Translations under genes and position numbers: made by a program
The notes under the pieces: generated by a model
What the model was told of the DNA's origin: nothing
The model's database searches: none
What the model saw: the letters and a program-made list of their open reading frames with translations, nothing else
Part shown: positions 116 to 11,661 of the stretch, in pieces
Layout: the number at the start of each line of letters is the position of its first letter
Position numbering within the stretch: the stretch's first letter is position 1
Assembly: GCA_946543095.1 (NCBI GenBank)
Contig: CAMNLO010000022.1
Coordinates: 1 to 11,674, forward strand
Source: an uncultured bacterium
GTDB lineage: Bacteria > Bacillota > Clostridia > Lachnospirales > Lachnospiraceae
Reading direction: 5' to 3'
DNA length: 11,674 nucleotides

Positions 116-478
116 ATGGAAACAATCTACGATTTTACATTACCCAAGGGTTATATCGACAAGGACGGCGAGCTGCACAGAAACGGCAAGATGCGTCTGG
201 CCACGGCGGGAGATGAGATCTCCGCCACCAAGGACCCCCGCGTCCTGGCAAACCCCTCCTATCTGACCATTGTTGTGTTAAGCAAGGTCATTACGGAGAT
301 CGAAGGGGTCATGGCCATCACTCCGACGTTAGTGGAGCGGCTCTTTACGGCGGACCTGGCCTTTCTGCAGGATATGTACCAGAAGATCAACGATATCGAG
401 CCCCCGAAGGTCCAGGCCATCTGCCCGGATTGCGGAAAGAGCTTTGAGGTACCGCTAAATTTTACATCAGAGGGATAA
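116..478 (+). CDS. Tail/baseplate assembly protein, T4 gp26 / P2 E-like (short frameshift partner)
   Basis: This 120-residue protein resembles the small 'phage tail assembly' proteins found in CIS and Mu/P2-like tail clusters, which are thought to chaperone baseplate hub or tape-measure assembly in the cytoplasm. It opens with a beta-rich segment (YDFTLPKGYIDKDGELHRNG), continues with a helical middle, and ends with one CPDC motif near residues 102-105, then FEVPLNF. ATG116 is preferred over the in-frame ATG104 because GAGG (106-109) sits 6 nt upstream of it and METIYDF is a typical start for the family. The gene's last codons contain the slippery heptamer AAATTTT in phase, and the next frame overlaps its end, so this is probably the unshifted product of a frameshift pair. 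Family assignment is from recalled sequence style, without a search. Confidence 0.75.
   Translation: METIYDFTLPKGYIDKDGELHRNGKMRLATAGDEISATKDPRVLANPSYLTIVVLSKVITEIEGVMAITPTLVERLFTADLAFLQDMYQKINDIEPPKVQAICPDCGKSFEVPLNFTSEG
446..450 (+). promoter_or_regulatory. Shine-Dalgarno-like GAGGT upstream of the slippery site
   Basis: GAGGT lies inside the assembly-protein gene, 6 nt before the slippery heptamer. In bacterial -1 frameshifting (dnaX is the classic case) an internal SD-like element upstream of the heptamer stimulates the shift, there at about 10 nt spacing. The element here is somewhat closer, so a stimulatory role is only a possibility. Confidence 0.35.
457..463 (+). other. Canonical -1 programmed frameshift slippery heptamer (A AAT TTT)
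   Basis: The heptamer AAATTTT fits X XXY YYZ exactly and lies in the correct phase of the upstream gene, which reads CTA AAT TTT (455-463). It falls inside the only stretch (448-478) where both the gp26-like frame and the DUF6760-like frame are open: the second frame has a TGA at 445-447 and the first ends with TAA at 476-478. A -1 slip after TTT continues at TAC (463-465) into the downstream frame. A 5-bp hairpin begins 9 nt later. The predicted fusion is 116 + 78 = 194 residues. Confidence 0.75.
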
Positions 479-699
479 CGTTCTATCCGGAAGAACAGCT
501 TTATAAGGAGATGGCATTTATTTCCTACTATTTTCACTGGAGCGAGGATGATGTGTTAAAGATCGAGCACATGAGGCGCAGAAAGTGGTGCGAGGAGATA
601 TCCGCCATAAACGCCTCCTTAAATCCCTCGGAAGACAGGAAAGAAAAGAGTATCGTGGACATGAAGTCCACAAGAGATATTTTGCGAAGCTTCGGCTAG
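463..699 (+). CDS. DUF6760-like CIS protein, expressed by -1 frameshift from the upstream gene
   Basis: This frame encodes 78 residues after the slip site and ends at TAG (697-699). The stretch YPEEQLYKEMAFISYYFHW, then an acidic helix and a MRRRKWCEEI segment, matches the style of DUF6760 proteins as I recall them from CIS clusters, which begin around YPxxxLYEEVAFxAYHFHW. That signature begins upstream of the only ATG (511), and no ATG, GTG or TTG occurs in this frame between its upstream stop (445-447) and 511. The AAGGAG before ATG511 touches the start codon with no spacer, so independent initiation there should be poor and would delete the conserved N-terminal motif. A frameshifted fusion is therefore the best explanation. 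ATA475 as a rare start is the alternative. The molecular role is unknown; the neighbourhood suggests tail or baseplate assembly. Confidence 0.7.
   Translation, partial: YIRGITFYPEEQLYKEMAFISYYFHWSEDDVLKIEHMRRRKWCEEISAINASLNPSEDRKEKSIVDMKSTRDILRSFG
473..488 (+). other. Small hairpin downstream of the slippery site
   Basis: GGATA (473-477) pairs with TATCC (484-488) around a 6-nt loop, giving 5 bp starting 9 nt after the heptamer. The distance is suitable for a frameshift stimulator. The stem is short and its contribution is uncertain. Confidence 0.35.
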
Positions 700-711
700 G
701 AGTAAAGCGCT

Positions 712-1206
712 ATGGCAGACATGCGAAACGGAGACGGCAATGGCAATATATTCGTAAGAAATTACGGAGTGAACCCTGCGCCGGCCTTTAACTTCATGCT
801 GAGGGTGGAAGGCGTCATCGATGTGCCCTGCAAGAAGATCCTTGCCTTTCGTAAGGAAAATGAATTTGAATACATCCAGGAGGGCGGGCTGAATGACTAT
901 GTCCACATGAGGAGAAAGCCCATTTCCCAGCCCTTCAAGCTTCAGGTGGAACGCTATATCGGCGTGGATTTCCTGGATCCCCTGACTCTGGGGACCGAGC
1001 TGATCCTGCCCTTATTCCTGATGGTTGGGAGAAACCTGGTTTATGATGAATTCGACCCGGTCCGGCTGTACCTGTTTACGGGCTGCGTCGTCACGGACAA
1101 GCAGTGGGGCGATCTGGACGCGGAGCGGAGCTCTTTGTTCACGGAGATCGTAACCATCGGCTACCGTGAGATGTTCTGTATACAGAATCCGTTAAACGGA
1201 GAATAA
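712..1206 (+). CDS. gp19-fold tail tube / tube-initiator protein (Afp5-like)
   Basis: This 164-residue protein has the T4 gp19 / CIS inner-tube pattern: an early beta-strand FNFMLRVEGV (about 26-35), then an EFEYIQEGGLND segment (about 47-58) followed by RRKPISQPFKLQVERYIG, which corresponds to the usual 'YxEGGxNxxxxxxPgxxxxxxLxRG' region. It lies next to the hub-adaptor genes rather than next to the sheath, so it more likely initiates the tube on the baseplate (Afp5/Pvc5 position) than forms the bulk tube. AGGAG (698-702) overlaps the preceding stop and sits 9 nt from ATG712, a good start; ATG721 is the weaker alternative. The structural subclass is inferred from position. Confidence 0.8.
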   Translation: MADMRNGDGNGNIFVRNYGVNPAPAFNFMLRVEGVIDVPCKKILAFRKENEFEYIQEGGLNDYVHMRRKPISQPFKLQVERYIGVDFLDPLTLGTELILPLFLMVGRNLVYDEFDPVRLYLFTGCVVTDKQWGDLDAERSSLFTEIVTIGYREMFCIQNPLNGE

Positions 1207-1265: not shown

Positions 1266-3842
1266 ATGCTGAAATTAAGACCACCGATACAACTGCAGAC
1301 CGACAAGCTGTTTACCACCGTATCCGATTCCTTCAGTGAGCGGGTGCGGGGGAACTACGGCATGATGGGTGCGAAATTCACGCCCGAAGCCTTTCTGCAT
1401 ATCGCAGCTACGCCTCCCTCCGTTTACATGGCGGAAGGAAACGTCATCAATCTCGTCGAACAGAACAATGTGTTTGAAAACCGGGGCAACTGGGTCTCGG
1501 TGTTCAACAATCTCGTAAACCGGATCCTGATCTCCGCAGACGCCCATCTGACCTATCAGGACACGGTCTACATCTCCAACATTCTGGATCAGCTGGGAGT
1601 CAAAAACGTACGTACCTTTATGAGCGAGGTGCAAAAGCTCACCCGTGAGAACAAGAATATCCGGGAGCTTTTACATCTGTACCGGGAAAATTCTGAGGAG
1701 CTCCGGGAAATGGTGCGGGACTATAAGACGGAAGTGGTGCGGGAAGGGGGACAGGTCCCGAAGGCAGAGGAGACCCCGGCGCTGTATCTGCATGAGAGTA
1801 TATTCAACCGCCTGCAGACAGCTCAGATCTACAATATCGTGAAGCAGAGCGCCACCACCTACGGCGCCCCCCTGGCCATTTCCAAGGAGGAATATTTCCT
1901 CTCCGAGCAGACCAGGCTTTCCCAGAATCTGGAGCTGCAGCGCTTCCAGAACTTTATCCGGGAAGAGAATCTGCCCCTTTCCTACAGACATGAGAATATC
2001 TATGAAGGCGACAGGTTCATGGAGACGGATTTAACGGAGCAGAGCGTCACCAACCGGATCTCCTCGGCGGTGCTCCTGAATCTTATCGACAATCTCTATC
2101 AGAGGCATTCCGAGCGGGCGGGGGATCTGTCCAACAAGTGGCTGTTCAACCAGAATTCCTTCTACGGCTCCGCGGACTCCACCTTCCGGAGGATCGAGAA
2201 CCGCACGGATTATATCCAGTACCTGCAGGAGCAGGGGGATATCAATCAGGAGCTGGCGGAATCCTACAACACGGAGATCAGCCTTGTCAACGAGCTCTTA
2301 ACGGAGACCTCAAAGAAGATCCGCCAGGGCGACAATGTAAGCATGGCAAGGGGCGGGGATATCTTAAACCAGTACGCCATGTACATTTCCCATGCCGGGG
2401 ACGTGTACATGGAAAATCCCAGGACCTATATCACCAACGAAAGCAGCCTGGATCAGGAGTACAGCCGGATCGAGCAGCGCAGGGAAGAAAACTGGTATTT
2501 CCCGGTGACCCGCAATGTGTCCGCAGACAACAGGCGCTCCGAGACCAATGTGGCCGGGACTGTATACGGAGACAGCATCAGCGATCAGACCCTCTTCTCC
2601 GAGAATAAAAACATCACGAACCTGCTACAGCAGCAGATCCGGAATCTGCAGAATGACCAGAGATATGAGGTGCAGGAGGGAGACAGGATTTCCTCTGTGG
2701 ACATGTATCACAGGGAAAGCAGTGTGACCAACGAGGGGGATCAGATCGCCCAGGAAAACATTGCCCTCAGGCAGGAATTAAACAATGTGCTCCGTCAGGA
2801 GCAGCAGTTTAAGAGCTCCCAGGAATTCAGGAATCTTTCGGAAAAGAACAATATCTTCGGCGGAAACACAAGCCGCACCGAAGAGACCAGTGTGAATATC
2901 TCAAACGCTTCCTCCCAGACAAACCAGTGGGGCGGGAGCTCCTCCAATACGGAGTTCAATTACGCCACCCAGCAGACCATGGAGGAGGAGATCAACAATG
3001 TCCAGGGGGATCAGTTCACCCTGGAGCAGCAGTTAAAACAGATCAACCAGGCCAATATCGAACGGTCCCAGAACTACTTCCAGGAGCTGAAAAAGCTGGA
3101 GATGGAATACCAGAACGCTCCCACAGCGGGCGGCAAGGAGCGGATCCTGCGGGAGAGCATGGCTGCCTTAAACGATCCTGCGGGCTTCGTGCAGCAGTTT
3201 AAGGAGCAGGCCCGCAGTGAGGAGCAGCGCAGGCAGGAGTTCATCAACAGGGCGGGGCAGCTTTTGGGAGCCAAGGAAGGCGTAGCCAACGAGGTGCTCA
3301 GGCAGTATCTGGAGAATCCGGACAAATACAGGGAACTGGAGTTTGTGACCCACAACGATATCGACCAGCTCACCAGGGATGCCAGGTTCTTCGAGAAAAG
3401 AACGGTGGACCATACTGAAACCCGCAAGGAGATCGAGGAGCGGATGAAAAACGTCACCACATCCGCCACGGACTGGGCGAAGGAACACACCACCACCAGC
3501 GGAAAGCAGCGTGAGGTCAGGGAAAGGATCCAGAATCTGGAGCTGACCCACAGACAGGTGGGACACACCTTTGACGAGGAGCTCTTCGAGGAGTTAAGAG
3601 AGCAGCAGAACACCACACAGCAGACCAACAGAGAGATCAGAAGTGTCCTGGAGAACAACGAGATCTCCAACCGCCAGATCATCAACAACCGAAGGAATAT
3701 GCGGATGGAGACCAACAATACCGAGGATATTTCCGAGATCGTAAGAAGAAGCGTACGCCGCCAGATGGACCAGATCTCCGAGAAGGTTTACAACCGCCTG
3801 GAGAGAAAGCTGGAAAACGAGAAAAGAAGACGGGGATTGTAA
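1266..3842 (+). CDS. Large Q/N/E-rich helical CIS protein, function unknown (tape-measure candidate)
   Basis: I do not recognise the family of this 858-residue protein. The first ~100 residues look globular (MLKLRPPIQLQTDKLF...). After this come long charged helices with likely coiled coil (about 110-165), a mixed middle, a Q/N-rich segment with Ser/Gly/Asn linkers (about 440-570), more helix (about 575-800), and a strongly basic C-terminal helix of about 38 residues ending ENEKRRRGL. There is no signal peptide and no hydrophobic membrane segment. It sits between the tube initiator and the hub adaptors, downstream of the frameshift pair, where phage tails often carry the tape measure. An extended helix of this length would span roughly 130 nm at 0.15 nm per residue. 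Lack of hydrophobic segments and the usual downstream place of Afp14-type tape measures argue against it, and an internal cargo or scaffold role is equally open. The start has only a weak SD. Confidence 0.6.
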   Translation: MLKLRPPIQLQTDKLFTTVSDSFSERVRGNYGMMGAKFTPEAFLHIAATPPSVYMAEGNVINLVEQNNVFENRGNWVSVFNNLVNRILISADAHLTYQDTVYISNILDQLGVKNVRTFMSEVQKLTRENKNIRELLHLYRENSEELREMVRDYKTEVVREGGQVPKAEETPALYLHESIFNRLQTAQIYNIVKQSATTYGAPLAISKEEYFLSEQTRLSQNLELQRFQNFIREENLPLSYRHENIYEGDRFMETDLTEQSVTNRISSAVLLNLIDNLYQRHSERAGDLSNKWLFNQNSFYGSADSTFRRIENRTDYIQYLQEQGDINQELAESYNTEISLVNELLTETSKKIRQGDNVSMARGGDILNQYAMYISHAGDVYMENPRTYITNESSLDQEYSRIEQRREENWYFPVTRNVSADNRRSETNVAGTVYGDSISDQTLFSENKNITNLLQQQIRNLQNDQRYEVQEGDRISSVDMYHRESSVTNEGDQIAQENIALRQELNNVLRQEQQFKSSQEFRNLSEKNNIFGGNTSRTEETSVNISNASSQTNQWGGSSSNTEFNYATQQTMEEEINNVQGDQFTLEQQLKQINQANIERSQNYFQELKKLEMEYQNAPTAGGKERILRESMAALNDPAGFVQQFKEQARSEEQRRQEFINRAGQLLGAKEGVANEVLRQYLENPDKYRELEFVTHNDIDQLTRDARFFEKRTVDHTETRKEIEERMKNVTTSATDWAKEHTTTSGKQREVRERIQNLELTHRQVGHTFDEELFEELREQQNTTQQTNREIRSVLENNEISNRQIINNRRNMRMETNNTEDISEIVRRSVRRQMDQISEKVYNRLERKLENEKRRRGL

Positions 3843-3845
3843 GCT

Positions 3846-4781
3846 ATGGACTTTTTGAATACCGCAATAGATAAAGTGAAAGGTTTTGGGAACGATCTGA
3901 AACCCCTGACCGGCAATATCCCGAAGGCCATGCTCTTTGTCCGGGATTTCACCGGGGATGAAGGCAGGGAGCGGCTGATGGATGATGCGAATAAGAAGGC
4001 CAAGAGCAAGGATGTCAGAGAGCTCCGAAAGCTGATCAAACAAAGGAAGAAGACCAGCCAGGAAAAAAAGACCGGACAGCTGTTAAAGAGCGCCGGGATC
4101 GGAGACGGCAGCTTCGGGGCCGGAGGAGGCAACGGTGCCAGCAAGGAGGAGATGATCCAGCAGCTGAAGGCAAGCAATTATCTTGCCTTTGAGGTCCAGT
4201 TCAATCCCAATAAGATCGCCCTGACCACCAGAGCCGGCAAGATCACGGATTATAAGTCTTTGGGGGATGCGGGGCGCCAGCAGCTGACCACCGTGGATCT
4301 GACGGCGGCCACCACCTTAAGCATTCAGCTGATCTTTGATGATATGAACATCCAGGATGCCTTCGTCAGGGAGGGAAATATCCTGACCAATCCCACCGTG
4401 GGCAATGTGGTGAGCACGGTCCAGAGCGTGGTGACCAATGCCAAGGGGGGATACTCCGTGAAGAACCAGACAGAGGGGCTTTTATCCCTTTTGGCCCACC
4501 AGCAGACCAGGGATGTGATCTTTACCTGGTGTGAGATGTTCTTCCACGGAATGGTGACGGATATCACAGCCCAGTACACCATGTTCAACAAGCTGGGGAA
4601 TCCGGTGCGCTCCACCGTGGACATGACCATCCGGCAGGCAGACTCCGGCGTGGAATACGAATCCGACAGGATGTACTGGGACGACGCCTTTACGGCGGCC
4701 TTCGGCGCGGCAGGGACCAAGATGCAGGCAAAGACCGACAGCGTTGTGTCAAAGGCCATGGGCGGCTGGTTCAACGTATAA
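3846..4781 (+). CDS. CIS tube/hub-adaptor domain protein, Afp7-like, copy 1 (no LysM)
   Basis: This 311-residue protein carries the N-terminal domain of Afp7/gp53-like CIS proteins, which join the hub to the first tube ring. The marks are FEVQFNPNKIAL (about 115-126), a central TLSIQLIFDDM segment, and a C-terminal block (about 235-264) with AQYTMFNKLGNPVR, then YWDDAFTAAFG. The first ~110 residues are a helical, Lys-rich extension with a Gly-rich linker. Family members such as Afp7 usually end in a LysM domain; none is visible here, as the protein stops shortly after the YW..AF..AFG motif. It starts 3 nt after the 858-residue gene, with GGGGA about 9 nt upstream, so translational coupling is likely. 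It is paralogous to the next gene. Confidence 0.8.
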   Translation: MDFLNTAIDKVKGFGNDLKPLTGNIPKAMLFVRDFTGDEGRERLMDDANKKAKSKDVRELRKLIKQRKKTSQEKKTGQLLKSAGIGDGSFGAGGGNGASKEEMIQQLKASNYLAFEVQFNPNKIALTTRAGKITDYKSLGDAGRQQLTTVDLTAATTLSIQLIFDDMNIQDAFVREGNILTNPTVGNVVSTVQSVVTNAKGGYSVKNQTEGLLSLLAHQQTRDVIFTWCEMFFHGMVTDITAQYTMFNKLGNPVRSTVDMTIRQADSGVEYESDRMYWDDAFTAAFGAAGTKMQAKTDSVVSKAMGGWFNV

Positions 4782-7092: not shown

Positions 7093-7938
7093 ATGGCACT
7101 TTTTGACGTCATCGAGGACATCTCCGAAAAGAATATCATCAAGACCGAGACCGGCGACAACCGGATCTTCGGCGTGGTCCTGGGAGAGGTGGTGGACAAT
7201 TTCAATGAAAAGCGCAAGGGCAGGATCTGCGTTTCCATCCACACCAGGGACCAGAACGCCAATGTACTGAAATGGGCGAGAGTGGCCATGCCCTATCTGG
7301 GGAAGGACTGGGGCCATTACTTTATCCCGGAGATCGGGGATCAGGTCCTGGTGGTCTTTGAGCAGGGAAATATCGAAAAGCCCTATGTCATCGGCTGCAT
7401 CCCCAAGGACACGGACAACTTCATCAAAGAGGTGAAGGGGGCGGACGACAACAATAAAAACCCGGCGAATCCCCACAAGAAGATCAAGACAAAACACGGA
7501 AACACCCTGTATTTCCTGGATGCCTTAGAGGGAGACGGCACCAAGGACAAGATCCAGCTCTTCACCGCGGGGGACGGCAAGACCGGCCAGCACTTGCTTG
7601 AGATGGACAATGAAAACAAGGAGATGAAGCTAAAGGACAAGGATGAGAACTGCCTTTTGGAGATGAAGACCGAGAAGGGCAATATCACCTTAAAGGCCGC
7701 GGAAAAGATCACCATCAAGGCAGGGGACAAGATCACCATCGTCCTAAACGGCACCAACGGCAAGATCACCGTGGACACCACGGATGTGAGCCTTTCCGCC
7801 CAGGGGCAGTTAAAGCTAAATGCCACGGGCAAGGCAGAGCTTTCCGGCGCCAATATCAATATCGAGTCCTCCGCCAGCCTGAAGCTAAATGCCAACGGCA
7901 TGACCACGGTGGGAGGCAATCTGATCAAGCTGGGATAA
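7093..7938 (+). CDS. Baseplate spike protein, gp5 OB-fold plus beta-helix (VgrG C-terminal half)
   Basis: This 281-residue spike completes the VgrG unit begun by the upstream hub gene. Residues ~15-105 form the gp5/VgrG OB-fold: GVVLGEVVDNFNEKRKGRICVSI, then VAMPYLGKDWGHYFIPEIGDQVLVVFEQGN and PYVIGCIP. After a Lys-rich linker comes KHGNTLYFLDALEG, the entry to the spike. Residues ~165-281 show short alternating hydrophobic/polar repeats (NITLKAAEKITIKAGDKITI, LKLNATGKAELSGANINIES), typical of the intertwined beta-helix of cell-puncturing spikes. It ends GGNLIKLG with no PAAR domain and no lysozyme or other enzyme insert. A separate PAAR tip would have to be encoded elsewhere. The long spacers on both sides set this gene apart from its tightly packed neighbours. 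Confidence 0.88.
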   Translation: MALFDVIEDISEKNIIKTETGDNRIFGVVLGEVVDNFNEKRKGRICVSIHTRDQNANVLKWARVAMPYLGKDWGHYFIPEIGDQVLVVFEQGNIEKPYVIGCIPKDTDNFIKEVKGADDNNKNPANPHKKIKTKHGNTLYFLDALEGDGTKDKIQLFTAGDGKTGQHLLEMDNENKEMKLKDKDENCLLEMKTEKGNITLKAAEKITIKAGDKITIVLNGTNGKITVDTTDVSLSAQGQLKLNATGKAELSGANINIESSASLKLNANGMTTVGGNLIKLG

Positions 7939-8060: not shown

Positions 8061-8522
8061 ATGCCCGACAAATCATTTTTGGGACAGGGGATGAAATTCC
8101 CGCCCACCATCAATCCGGCCACGGGCAAATTTGAGACGGTGTCCGAAGAGCAGAGCGTCAGGGAGTCGGTCTATCTTCTTCTGATGACCCAGAAGACCGA
8201 GCGGCCCATGCGTCCGGAATTCGGCACCAACCTGATGTCCTACACCTTCCTGGATCTGGGGACCACAATGCTCAACATGGTCATCAGGACCCTCAGGGAT
8301 CAGCTGACGGTGCAGGAGCCCAGGATTCAGGATGTGGAGATCACGGCGGACACAAAGAGCCGTCCCGGAGCCATTTTGTTTGACATCGAGTACACAGTGC
8401 GGGCCACAAACGTGCGCGATAATCTGGTATTCCCGTTTTATATGAACGCGCAGGTGGAGACAGAGGGAGAGGAACCGGAGGAATATGAACCAGAGGAGAT
8501 CATCCAGGAAATTACAGATTGA
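8061..8522 (+). CDS. gp25-like baseplate wedge protein (GPW/gp25 family, Afp9-like)
   Basis: This 153-residue protein belongs to the GPW/gp25 family, which forms the innermost wedge component and provides the handshake template on which the first sheath ring assembles. Seen directly: a helical segment EEQSVRESVYLLLMTQKTERPMRPEFGTNL with the family's E-R-P.R.PEFG signature (residues 47-55), a long helix after it, and a final strand pair DIEYTVRATNVRDNLVFPF. The last ~20 residues form a very acidic tail (VETEGEEPEEYEPEEIIQEITD). Part of this tail is encoded by the 38 nt shared with the next gene, so it may exist partly because of the overlap. GGAGG (8051-8055) lies 5 nt before ATG8061, a strong start. 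Confidence 0.9.
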   Translation: MPDKSFLGQGMKFPPTINPATGKFETVSEEQSVRESVYLLLMTQKTERPMRPEFGTNLMSYTFLDLGTTMLNMVIRTLRDQLTVQEPRIQDVEITADTKSRPGAILFDIEYTVRATNVRDNLVFPFYMNAQVETEGEEPEEYEPEEIIQEITD

Positions 8523-11500
8523 TCCGAGGACAGCGGCGGATATCGAAAAAAAGATCGCCGAGCTGGCAGCCTGCTACGATACGGGCTGGCACTACGACCC
8601 GGAGGATCCCGATATCGGTGTGGCCCTGGCAAAGATCTTTGCCACCCAGATGGAAGAGAACATCGGTCTGGAGAATGATGTCTTAAACCGCTACCACACC
8701 GAGTTCATCAACCTGCTGGACATTTCGCTGCTTCCCGCCAAGCCTGCCAGCAGTGTCGTGGTGGCAAGCCTGATCGACGACGCCCTCTCCGGGGCCTTTC
8801 TGGAGAAGGGCACAAAGCTGTTTTCCGATGCGGATGAGCCTGTTATCTTTGAAACGGACAACGGCGTCTATGTCACGGGAGCCAGGATCAGCGCCGCCTA
8901 TATGACGGACCTGGAGGACGGGACTTTGGTGCCCTTGTTAGGGAGATTCCAGCCCCCCGAGATCCCGGGAGAGCTGGGGAGCCCCCGGGAGGAGTCCTCT
9001 GCCCTGGAGGATGACGCCTCCGTGGACGAGGAAGAATCCGGAGAAGAGAAGGAAAAGGATAACCTGAAGCCTGCCCCTTCCCGGGACCACAGAGGAGACT
9101 TCCCCTTCTTAAGGCGCATCCAGCCGGATACCGGGGATGACAATGATGAGCTTTTGGACAGAGCCCCGACGCTGCGTCCCTTCACGTTATTCGGAGAGCA
9201 CGACGGGATCGAGCGCAATGTTTTGCTGATGTACCATTCCACAGTCTTTGACGTGGAGAATGAGAGCATTTATTTCAGCTTTTCCGATGCGGAAAAGCTG
9301 GTGGAGGATATCAACGAAGGCAGGGTCCAGTTCGGCTATGTCTCCGCTGCGGGCATCACTGCCGTGGACAGCGTGGAAGCCCTGGATGACGGCAGGACCT
9401 TTGTGGTGAAAAAGAGTGAGGAGTGCCGCAGGGTCCCTATCGGTGAGAAGGAGTATTCCGTATTTCTTCTCATCGCAAAAGGCCCTGTGGAAGCCGCCAG
9501 AAAAGCCGGGAAGATCACCCTTTCCTCCTCCGGGGCGCCTGCCCCTGCGGAAAGCGTTTCCGACGGACAAAATGATTTTGAACCGAATTCCTTTGCTCCC
9601 TTCTCGGACACCCTTTCCCTGTATGCGGAATGCTTTATCGGGATGAATTCCTATTTCTCAAAGTCGGGCGCCAATATCACCATGGCCTTTGACGTGAGCT
9701 TCGAAGAGCACCGCCTCACCATGACTCCCGAGCAGCTGGATGAATCCTTAAAGATCATCAAGAGAAAGCCCCGGATCATCAGCAAGGAGGTCAGCGCGGA
9801 TTCCCGTGCGGAAGAGGTGGCTCTGGAATATTTCAACGGGACAGGCTGGAAAAAGCTTCCCCTGGTCGGTGATGTCCGTGCCCTGTTTGCCATGGAAAAG
9901 GCCGGCAGGGTGGAATTACGCTTTGTCTGCCCTTCCGACTGGCAGGAAACCTCTGCCGGAGCCTTTAACGGAAAGATCCTGCGGCTGCAGCTTCTGAAGG
10001 CGGATAACTGCTATTTAAGGCCCTGCGTGCATCACTATCCGGTGATGAAGAATCTGACCATCGCCTATGAGTATCCCCAGGACTACACGATCCCTTCCCT
10101 CCTGGAGGTCATCGCCGGGACAAAGAAGTACGATCTGACCCCGAAGATGAAAAACCCGAAGGGTTTTGTGACCTTCCGTCAGAGCGAATATCATGACGAT
10201 GCCCTGTATCTGTGCTTTTCCAAGGCCCTGGAGGACGGGCCCATCAGCCTTTTATTCGAGCTGGAGGACGCCGCCCGGTTTGAGGAGCTGAAGTGCAGAT
10301 TCGAATATATGACCTCGGACGGCTTTAAGATCCTGAAGGTCTCCGATCAGACCCAGGATTTCACCAGATCCGGTGTGGTGCGGTTTATTCCGCCCCCGGA
10401 TATGTTCAACACGGTGCTGGAAGGGCAGAAGGGCTACTGGATCCGGATCGTCCGGGGCAAGCGCCAGAGCGAAAACGAAAACATCTTTGATCTGCCCAAA
10501 ATCCGGAATATCTATCTGAATGCGGTGTCCGTCTCCAATATCGAGACGCTGGGGATCATGGATCTCTATGTAAATACCCTGGAGCCCAATATGCGGTTCG
10601 GCTTAAGCGCCACCAATATCCTGGACGCCGAGGTGTGGGTCAACGAGATCACCAGCTTCTCCAGGGATGAGATGAAGCGAAGGCTTTTGGAGGATCCGGA
10701 TAACAACTACGCGGAATTCGATATGATGGGGAATTTCACCGCCTTCTACACCAAATGGGAAGAGGTGACCCATTTCTCGGAGGCTGCCCATCCCAGGGTC
10801 TATATCCTGGACCGCTTAAGGAACCAGCTGATCTTCGGCGACGGCGTGGAAACCTATTTCCCCAGGGTCATGGACGATACGGCGATCCGGGTGCGGATCA
10901 GGCGTTCCGGCGGCGAGAGCGGCAATGTGGACGTGGGAAGCATCGACACCTCCATGTCCTACCTGATGTATATCGGGAATCTCTATAACCCGGTTCGGGC
11001 CTACGGCGGCTCCAACATCGAGAATATCGACGAGGCGCTGCAAAGAGGCGCCAATATCCTAAGCTCCGGGGACAGACTGGTCAGCCTTGAGGACTACAAG
11101 CGGGGCATCCTGTCCTATTCCGACACCATCGACCAGGTCCGCGGGGTCACGGGAGTGGCCATGGACGGGACGGAAACAGAGTCGGACATCTGGTTTGTGC
11201 TCCTGATGAAGGAGTTTGCGGACGGTTCCTTTGCCTTCCACCAGATCGTGGGGGGCCTGAAGAAATATCTGTTAGCGCATTCCGAGGTGACGGTCACAGA
11301 GGAGCGGCTGCATATCGTGGAGCCCATTTTCGTGGCGGTTTCCGTGGAGGTGTGGGTCAGCGTCATCGATATGGACGACAGCTTTGAGCTGCAGCCCCTG
11401 ATGAACGCGGTGATGGAGGAATACTTGAATCCCACGGGCTTAGAGTACGGAAAAGGCTGGCGCATCGGCACGCTGCCGAAGAAATCCCAGCTTCTGATGC

Positions 11501-11661
11501 GGCTGAACATCTTAAAGAGCAGGGCCATGGTCAAGCGGTCCATGATCACCGTCAGCTATCGGGACAGCAATGGATTCCATGAGGCGGATCTGGACGATGT
11601 GGAAGTGACGCCCTTCATGCTGCCGGTGAGCGGACAGCACAAGGTTCACGTGATGTACTGA
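8485..11661 (+). CDS. Large baseplate wedge protein, gp6 / BaseplateJ-like (Afp11-like)
   Basis: This 1058-residue protein matches the long 'putative baseplate assembly protein' family of CIS, which links wedges into the ring around the hub. The N-terminus has the expected 'IDPRTAADIEKKIAELAACY' opening and DPDIGVALAKIFATQMEENI. A mid-C-terminal BaseplateJ-type core contains LIFGDGVETYFP, then IRVRIRRSGGESGNV (about 780-822), and the end shows LEDYKRGILSY and GLEYGKGWRIGTLPKKSQ. An acidic, proline/serine-rich, probably disordered insert lies at about residues 156-229. The gene starts inside the gp25-like gene (38-nt overlap) with GGAGG (8477-8481) 3 nt before ATG8485, which points to translational coupling and equal wedge stoichiometry. 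Confidence 0.88.
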   Translation: MNQRRSSRKLQIDPRTAADIEKKIAELAACYDTGWHYDPEDPDIGVALAKIFATQMEENIGLENDVLNRYHTEFINLLDISLLPAKPASSVVVASLIDDALSGAFLEKGTKLFSDADEPVIFETDNGVYVTGARISAAYMTDLEDGTLVPLLGRFQPPEIPGELGSPREESSALEDDASVDEEESGEEKEKDNLKPAPSRDHRGDFPFLRRIQPDTGDDNDELLDRAPTLRPFTLFGEHDGIERNVLLMYHSTVFDVENESIYFSFSDAEKLVEDINEGRVQFGYVSAAGITAVDSVEALDDGRTFVVKKSEECRRVPIGEKEYSVFLLIAKGPVEAARKAGKITLSSSGAPAPAESVSDGQNDFEPNSFAPFSDTLSLYAECFIGMNSYFSKSGANITMAFDVSFEEHRLTMTPEQLDESLKIIKRKPRIISKEVSADSRAEEVALEYFNGTGWKKLPLVGDVRALFAMEKAGRVELRFVCPSDWQETSAGAFNGKILRLQLLKADNCYLRPCVHHYPVMKNLTIAYEYPQDYTIPSLLEVIAGTKKYDLTPKMKNPKGFVTFRQSEYHDDALYLCFSKALEDGPISLLFELEDAARFEELKCRFEYMTSDGFKILKVSDQTQDFTRSGVVRFIPPPDMFNTVLEGQKGYWIRIVRGKRQSENENIFDLPKIRNIYLNAVSVSNIETLGIMDLYVNTLEPNMRFGLSATNILDAEVWVNEITSFSRDEMKRRLLEDPDNNYAEFDMMGNFTAFYTKWEEVTHFSEAAHPRVYILDRLRNQLIFGDGVETYFPRVMDDTAIRVRIRRSGGESGNVDVGSIDTSMSYLMYIGNLYNPVRAYGGSNIENIDEALQRGANILSSGDRLVSLEDYKRGILSYSDTIDQVRGVTGVAMDGTETESDIWFVLLMKEFADGSFAFHQIVGGLKKYLLAHSEVTVTEERLHIVEPIFVAVSVEVWVSVIDMDDSFELQPLMNAVMEEYLNPTGLEYGKGWRIGTLPKKSQLLMRLNILKSRAMVKRSMITVSYRDSNGFHEADLDDVEVTPFMLPVSGQHKVHVMY

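Follow-up and report, generated by a model that had tools for sequence, protein, structure and literature searches.

Known tail-assembly chaperones with frameshifted forms

In phage lambda, the tail-assembly chaperone is made in a short form, G, and in a -1 frameshifted long form, GT, with G GGA AAG as the slippery site. T4-like phages reportedly use a mechanism other than frameshifting. The record of phage Mu annotates a frameshift of gp41 as verified, with a shift of -2. The record of phage P2 places E and E+E', with a -1 shift, between the tube and the tape-measure genes. The -1 arrangement was found in P2 and all seven relatives analysed (8/8), with the sequence TTTTTTG in six of the eight and TTTTTTC or GGGAAAG in the others; the accessible part of PMC3091744 gives TTTTTTG as the slip site of P2.

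The literature searched, which lay mostly outside subscription papers, contained no report of frameshifting in eCIS, and neither did the accessible parts of PMC13222765, PMC5411513, PMC8528098, PMC8718954 and PMC12210884. We analysed a locus at which a programmed -1 ribosomal frameshift very probably takes place in the tail-assembly chaperone gene of an eCIS. This reading is based on the reading frames, the missing start codon in the window, the conservation of the site, its constraint at the nucleotide level, the probable homology of the downstream protein with E', the chaperone-like upstream protein and the eCIS context. The slippage itself, the ratio of the products and the client of the chaperone are what we infer.

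Two overlapping reading frames in an injection-system cluster

The window, i.e. the whole stretch of 11,674 nucleotides that was analysed, begins at the first base of its contig, and all the features described here lie on its forward (+) strand. The chaperone gene (116..478) runs from ATG116 or ATG104 to TAA476-478, coding for 120 or 124 residues, respectively, with a CxxC motif near the end. The -1 reading frame that contains DUF6760 (448..699) opens after TGA445-447 and ends with TAG697-699. The two frames are thus both open over 31 nt (448..478), and this overlap contains the slippery heptamer A AAT TTT (457..463) in phase with the chaperone gene, with AAT as the P-site and TTT as the A-site codon. 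The first ATG, GTG or TTG of the -1 frame is ATG511, which lies inside the conserved domain, past YPEEQLYKE. The preliminary description of this DNA had reported the heptamer and its phase, the 31-nt overlap and the lack of a start codon for the second protein, all of which hold. A -1 slip gives VPLNF followed by YIRGITFYPEEQLYKEMAF, as it had claimed. The predicted fusion, as computed, comprises 194 residues: the first 116 of the chaperone, counted from ATG116, are joined to a 78-residue extension encoded by 463..699.

On the 5' side of the chaperone gene, a GC-rich inverted repeat seen by eye at 60-82 (GCTCCGCGCC GTA GGCGCGGGGC, with one G-U pair) is a possible hairpin of the terminator or REP type.

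The neighbouring genes confirm that the locus is part of a CIS cluster. Directly 3' of DUF6760 is a second tail-tube-like gene (712..1206; PF06841 at 0.003, below the cut-off; phrog_4542 at 1.3e-4), followed by a gene for an 858-residue protein without Pfam or NCBIfam match (1266..3842), which is a possible chaperone client or tape measure. Further genes code for a CIS_tube protein (3846..4781; PF19266, 5.4e-16), a spike of the Phage_base_V type (7093..7938; PF04717, 4.8e-20), the baseplate wedge protein gp25 (8061..8522; PF04965, 7.2e-20) and a baseplate assembly protein (8485..11661; TIGR02243, 7.5e-17, below its cut-off). A relative, G085, has the full set on one 3.8-Mb contig, in the order sheath, gp19 tube, chaperone, DUF6760, tube-like and hub-like proteins (both below cut-off), spike, two Baseplate_J proteins and an AAA ATPase (PF00004, 2.5e-30), and its upstream flank carries the host MreB and RecD2 genes. 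No phage head gene is present among the 20 ORFs scanned in G085. The combination of sheath, tube, baseplate and AAA ATPase with no head gene therefore indicates an injection system rather than a prophage, and as far as scanned the cluster appears to be a chromosomal eCIS. In locus L180, the chaperone gene comes after the tube gene.

Conservation of the heptamer and of the -1 overlap

In a sample of 397 genomes of the family, DUF6760 is present in 38, the window's own included. All 38 harbour an in-phase canonical X XXY YYZ heptamer within the -1-open overlap, namely A AAT TTT in 35 genomes, T TTT TTG in two (L010 and L031) and T TTT TTA in one (L199). Chance would yield ~0.056 in-phase heptamers per nine-codon overlap; elsewhere in the same kind of genes, in-phase X XXY YYZ is found at 45 of 7276 codon positions and AAATTTT at none. 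We also defined a near set of 69 loci, consisting of the window and L002-L070 minus L017; the counts do not include L001 and L017, each of which duplicates the window. One of the near loci, L068, belongs to the cultured Mediterraneibacter agrestimuris DSM 111629. These loci represent 67 distinct junction stretches, with two pairs having identical junctions. The downstream ORF is in the -1 relation in all 69, and the heptamer is A AAT TTT in 67 and T TTT TTG in the remaining two. An independent search by chaperone returned 39 loci.

Two frames of which the second has no start can resemble a single gene that has lost or gained one base, by decay or through an assembly error. The same arrangement is present in 69/69 near loci from many assemblies, with a conserved site, which refutes this explanation and leaves it a negligible probability. 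For the programmed frameshift, we consider the conservation of the heptamer decisive at the sequence level.

At one of the T TTT TTG loci (L010 1354-1506, in genome G343, which also has a second DUF6760 copy), ~45 extra codons are found between the chaperone stop and DUF6760, with the -1 frame open; these codons look like a linker within the fusion.

Constraint at the nucleotide level

Third-base changes were counted in 68 distinct chaperone genes (70 loci) picked for having A AAT TTT, a choice that omits just two of the 69 near loci. The codon that precedes AAT is GTA in 22 genes, ATA in 19, CTA in 18 and TTA in nine. Its third base is A in 68/68, compared with 358 of 1904 Leu/Ile/Val codons ending in A elsewhere, and CTA is rare in the rest of these genes (12 of 723 Leu codons). 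Changes were counted on a tree built without the junction stretch, so that the counts allow for relatedness. The first base of the preceding codon has changed 23 times, and its second and third bases have not changed. For the three codons of the site, the numbers of third-base changes are 0, 0 and 0, whereas 99 of the 101 other codon positions have 5 to 38; the two other zeros are an invariant Met and the Gln at codon -30. The amino acid at the preceding codon varies and the third base never does, and thus selection at the level of the protein cannot explain this pattern in the aligned genes. The check proposed in the preliminary description, that homologues be aligned to see whether heptamer, overlap and synonymous-site constraint are kept, was strongly passed.

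RNA polymerase stuttering at the site would also join the two frames and likewise yield a fusion. However, the conservation tracks codon phase, and AAATTTT has just a 4-base run, shorter than those known to cause polymerase slippage. We hence consider this origin of the fusion highly improbable.

A separate stretch with few third-base changes was noted at 368-382 of the window, chaperone codons -30 to -26 (CAG GAT ATG TAC CAG), where four of the five positions have low counts (0, 6, 7 and 5) and the Tyr codon has 18. Codon bias is a possible cause.

Start codons and possible separate translation of DUF6760

Another way to make DUF6760 is as a separate protein, by translational coupling. Ribosomes that end at TAA476 would restart at ATA475, ACG478 or TTC481, aided by the SD-like GAGGG at 470-474. 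This second SD-like word is found at codons +4/+5, just before the stop, in 47 of 68 genes; it is coding in both frames and could serve initiation. Possible starts exist in part of the loci as well. Ahead of the YP motif, the -1 ORF is entirely free of ATG, GTG and TTG in 26 of the 38 family genomes, and the other 12 have some, located between the slip site and the motif in eight and upstream of the slip site in seven, three of these having both. Among the loci of the distant G class described below, ATG or GTG is present in 6/22, and public annotation has separate DUF6760 genes in several plasmids. Nevertheless, no start is conserved, the codon at -9 being ATA in 42 of the 69 near loci and TTA in 16, and that at -6 being AAG, AGG, ACG or others. 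Coupling also leaves the zero third-base change at the heptamer unexplained. Moreover, the canonical starts coincide with a TGA stop in all six G-class cases and in five of the ten near loci that have one (L003, L004, L010, L063 and L067); they are possibly incidental there, because any TGA stop automatically places NTG in the -1 frame. In the other five near loci the start is the codon before YP. Altogether, we regard translational coupling as unlikely.

All 12 family genomes with a possible start still keep the heptamer. The preliminary description had named, as evidence against frameshifting, homologues with a clear start before the YPxxxLY motif and no canonical heptamer; there is no such case among the family genomes, 38/38 of which have the heptamer, but some occur among distant loci, i.e. 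the 6/22 G-class loci with ATG or GTG.

Candidate stimulators of frameshifting

Two elements flanking the heptamer had been put forward as possible stimulators. The upstream one, the SD-like GAGGT, is present at 446..450, with GAGG 7 nt 5' of the heptamer in the window. Glu at codon -4 is encoded by GAG in 45 of 48 cases versus 337 of 593 elsewhere, a bias that mildly supports its role. In 39 of 68 genes, an SD-like word of at least four bases occurs within the 15 nt that precede codon -1, versus 281 of 1488 control stretches. Taken together, these numbers lend moderate to mild support to a putative SD-type stimulator upstream of the heptamer.

The other element, the hairpin GGATA/TATCC (473..488), does have a 5-bp stem starting 9 nt 3' of the heptamer, but its role as a stimulator is not borne out by folding or covariation. 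The fold of the window at this place is no better than those of shuffled sequences (z -0.96), and no compensatory change was found in 21 sequences (RNAalifold -0.7 kcal/mol, five pairs). In 10 sequences, the fold energies range from z -3.4 to +0.8, and the folds differ. The hairpin was therefore rejected as a conserved element. The accessible part of PMC3091744 describes P2-like slip sites that also have no downstream structure.

The upstream protein

The preliminary description had called the upstream protein gp26-like, which agrees with our results. This protein matches phrog_508 at 1.1e-8, the family to which Mu gp41 also belongs (6e-49). Its structural model has a pLDDT of 85, and the best fold match is an uncharacterised protein of Bacillus phage BCD7 (E 1.3e-7). 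Named fold matches are T4-like baseplate hub assembly proteins (5.3e-6 and 1.4e-4). Against the PDB, none of 54 matches has E <=0.001, and the first one, 2ob9 (the HK97 tail assembly chaperone), is weak (prob 0.84, E 0.29, TM 0.48-0.54). The Nostoc homologue matches PF12322 weakly (0.077). The family match, together with the folds and the weak PDB match, assigns the upstream protein to the tail-assembly chaperones. A tblastn search of phages with the upstream gene gave no match, and hhalign detected no link with P2 E, as 138 of 200 shuffles score equally well.

Two peculiarities of chaperone frames were observed in other loci. In the IMG/VR loci L183-L188, the frame spans ~260-320 codons from stop to stop, with an apparent N-terminal repeat (LPIGY..., then LEDGY...). 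In L081, it is interrupted upstream (open run of 57 codons), and it has no stop near the junction and runs beyond the YP motif; decay or a sequence error is possible in this case.

The DUF6760 extension and its probable kinship to P2 E'

The DUF6760 assignment of the downstream protein was confirmed, with the domain at 478-648 of the window (PF20546, 1.4e-17). The model of this protein contains helices only (pLDDT 76). Comparison of DUF6760 with P2 E' and seven relatives by hhalign gave a probability of 89 and an E of 2.3e-6, a score reached by 0 of 200 column shuffles. With plain HMMER and the DUF6760 profile, four of eight E' proteins rank above all 2000 shuffled decoys (0.0087 for the best E' protein, 0.049 for the best decoy). 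As this HMMER signal is weak, the link is based on profile comparison, a shared FHW...W pattern and synteny. The extension is thus probably homologous to P2 E' (PF06528 family), and the analogy with P2 E/E' drawn in the preliminary description is borne out to the extent of this probable homology for the second protein.

Pfam searches of four DUF6760 proteins at E up to 10 listed PF20546 alone and no PF06528, and PF06528 was found in 0 of 249 genomes of the window's phylum. In phages, tblastn gave no DUF6760 match with the window or Nostoc query and two with the L080 query, at E 9 and 10. Viral contigs gave no DUF6760 with the window protein as a query and six loci with alignment A1. There was no meaningful match among solved structures searched by sequence, and none of 77 BFVD matches to the DUF6760 fold has E <=0.001. 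A 137-residue 'Tape measure chaperone' of Burkholderia phage Mica appears in the fold searches of both proteins, with the chaperone (prob 1.00, 87 columns, E 0.051) and with DUF6760 (prob 0.90, 36 columns, E 1.3). No paper naming DUF6760 was found in a literature search mostly confined to non-subscription papers.

Proposed mechanism and comparison with phages

We propose that the majority of ribosomes would make the 120-residue chaperone. In a fraction of them, the P-site tRNA-Asn (codon AAT) and the A-site tRNA-Phe (codon TTT) would move back by one base to AAA TTT. The slipped ribosomes would proceed in the -1 frame and add the 78-residue DUF6760 extension, giving a fusion of ~194 residues. 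The two forms, made in a set ratio, would chaperone tail assembly in the manner of lambda G/GT and P2 E/E+E'; their most likely task would be to bind the tape-measure protein and bring in tube subunits. The earlier observation is real and its main point was very likely read correctly, slippage itself remaining a prediction from sequence.

The locus resembles that of P2 gpE/gpE+E' in its order of sheath, tube and chaperone genes, its -1 arrangement, its type of heptamer and the relatedness of the extension. In contrast with P2, it has a longer extension, A AAT TTT is the heptamer usually found, and the host of the device is an injection system; moreover, no link between the upstream protein and gpE was detected, and the gene that comes next is a second tube-like gene rather than a tape measure. 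The upstream protein shares its PHROG, phrog_508, with Mu gp41. However, the shift is -1 at a heptamer here and -2 in the Mu record, and the locus did not behave as a Mu-type -2 case when tested for it. The likeness to lambda G/GT lies in a chaperone predicted to have a short and a -1 frameshifted long form. Finally, the chaperone model resembles the T4-like gp26/gp51 baseplate hub assembly proteins, although those are reportedly made by a non-frameshift mechanism.

If this reading is correct, eCIS, the subject of both basic research and engineering as protein injectors, gain a protein product overlooked by annotation, and an assembly step known so far from phages would extend to them. DUF6760 would get a likely identity as a relative of P2 E', and a shared translation device would tie injection systems to contractile phages. 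The model predicts that a cluster in which the two ORFs are uncoupled or their ratio is altered would assemble poorly.

Distant loci and a G-run class

Farther loci of the same phylum have the sites T TTT TTG (L080), T TTT TTA (L073, L190 and L191) and A AAT TTT (L079), and the merged site AAT TTT TTG is found in L071, L075 and L078, the last one read by eye. Six IMG/VR contigs (L183-L188) encode the chaperone and a DUF6760 relative; T TTT TT(A/G) is present in all five of the junction sites read (L183-L185, L187 and L188). Setting aside the loci with A/U heptamers and L085 (Haloferax) leaves 22 loci, which we call the G class. All of them have xxG GGG GRR at the same place, after CTG, TGG, TCG, ACG, TTG, GCG or CCG as the preceding codon, and xxG GGG is found at 8 of 2061 codons elsewhere. 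They span four bacterial phyla, that of the window together with Paenibacillus, Cyanobacteriota, Actinomycetota and Pseudomonadota. The chaperone frame ends with TAA or TAG without a start in 12 of these loci and with TGA in eight, and two have no nearby stop. Six of the eight TGA loci have ATG or GTG, and two have neither (CTG). These starts could be mere by-products of the TGA stop, or genuine ones for which the G run would serve as the ribosome-binding site.

Seventeen of the 34 plasmid records with a match were read. Annotated DUF6760 genes in public records start inside the domain in Rhodococcus, and at ATA in Nostoc, ATT in Pseudanabaena and CTG in S. cadmiisoli. Such odd starts, which include an internal TTG, were noted in L082, L083, L086 and L203; they fit a missing start codon. 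The suggestion that separate small DUF6760 genes conceal such an arrangement seems correct for many of them, given the 22/22 G-class junctions, but it is unproven there.

The presence of xxG GGG GRR at all G-class junctions means that the device is possibly general. Similar sites in distant relatives suggest that frameshifting may be common in such machines, and its generality across phyla in eCIS is plausible. A broader proposal, to which we give about an even chance, is that the -1 frameshifted chaperone is general and ancestral in contractile injection systems across bacterial phyla, stemming from a common stock of myophage tails. It would use two interchangeable classes of sites, A AAU UUU / U UUU UUR and the G run xxG GGG GAR, at which the P-site tRNA-Gly alone would re-pair. 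The separately annotated 'DUF6760 family protein' would then mostly be an artefact, the true product being a chaperone-DUF6760 fusion.

The archaeal Haloferax pair (L085 2950-2980), a single sequence, has an ATG (-12) overlapping the stop, and its overlap also contains G GGA AAC in phase.
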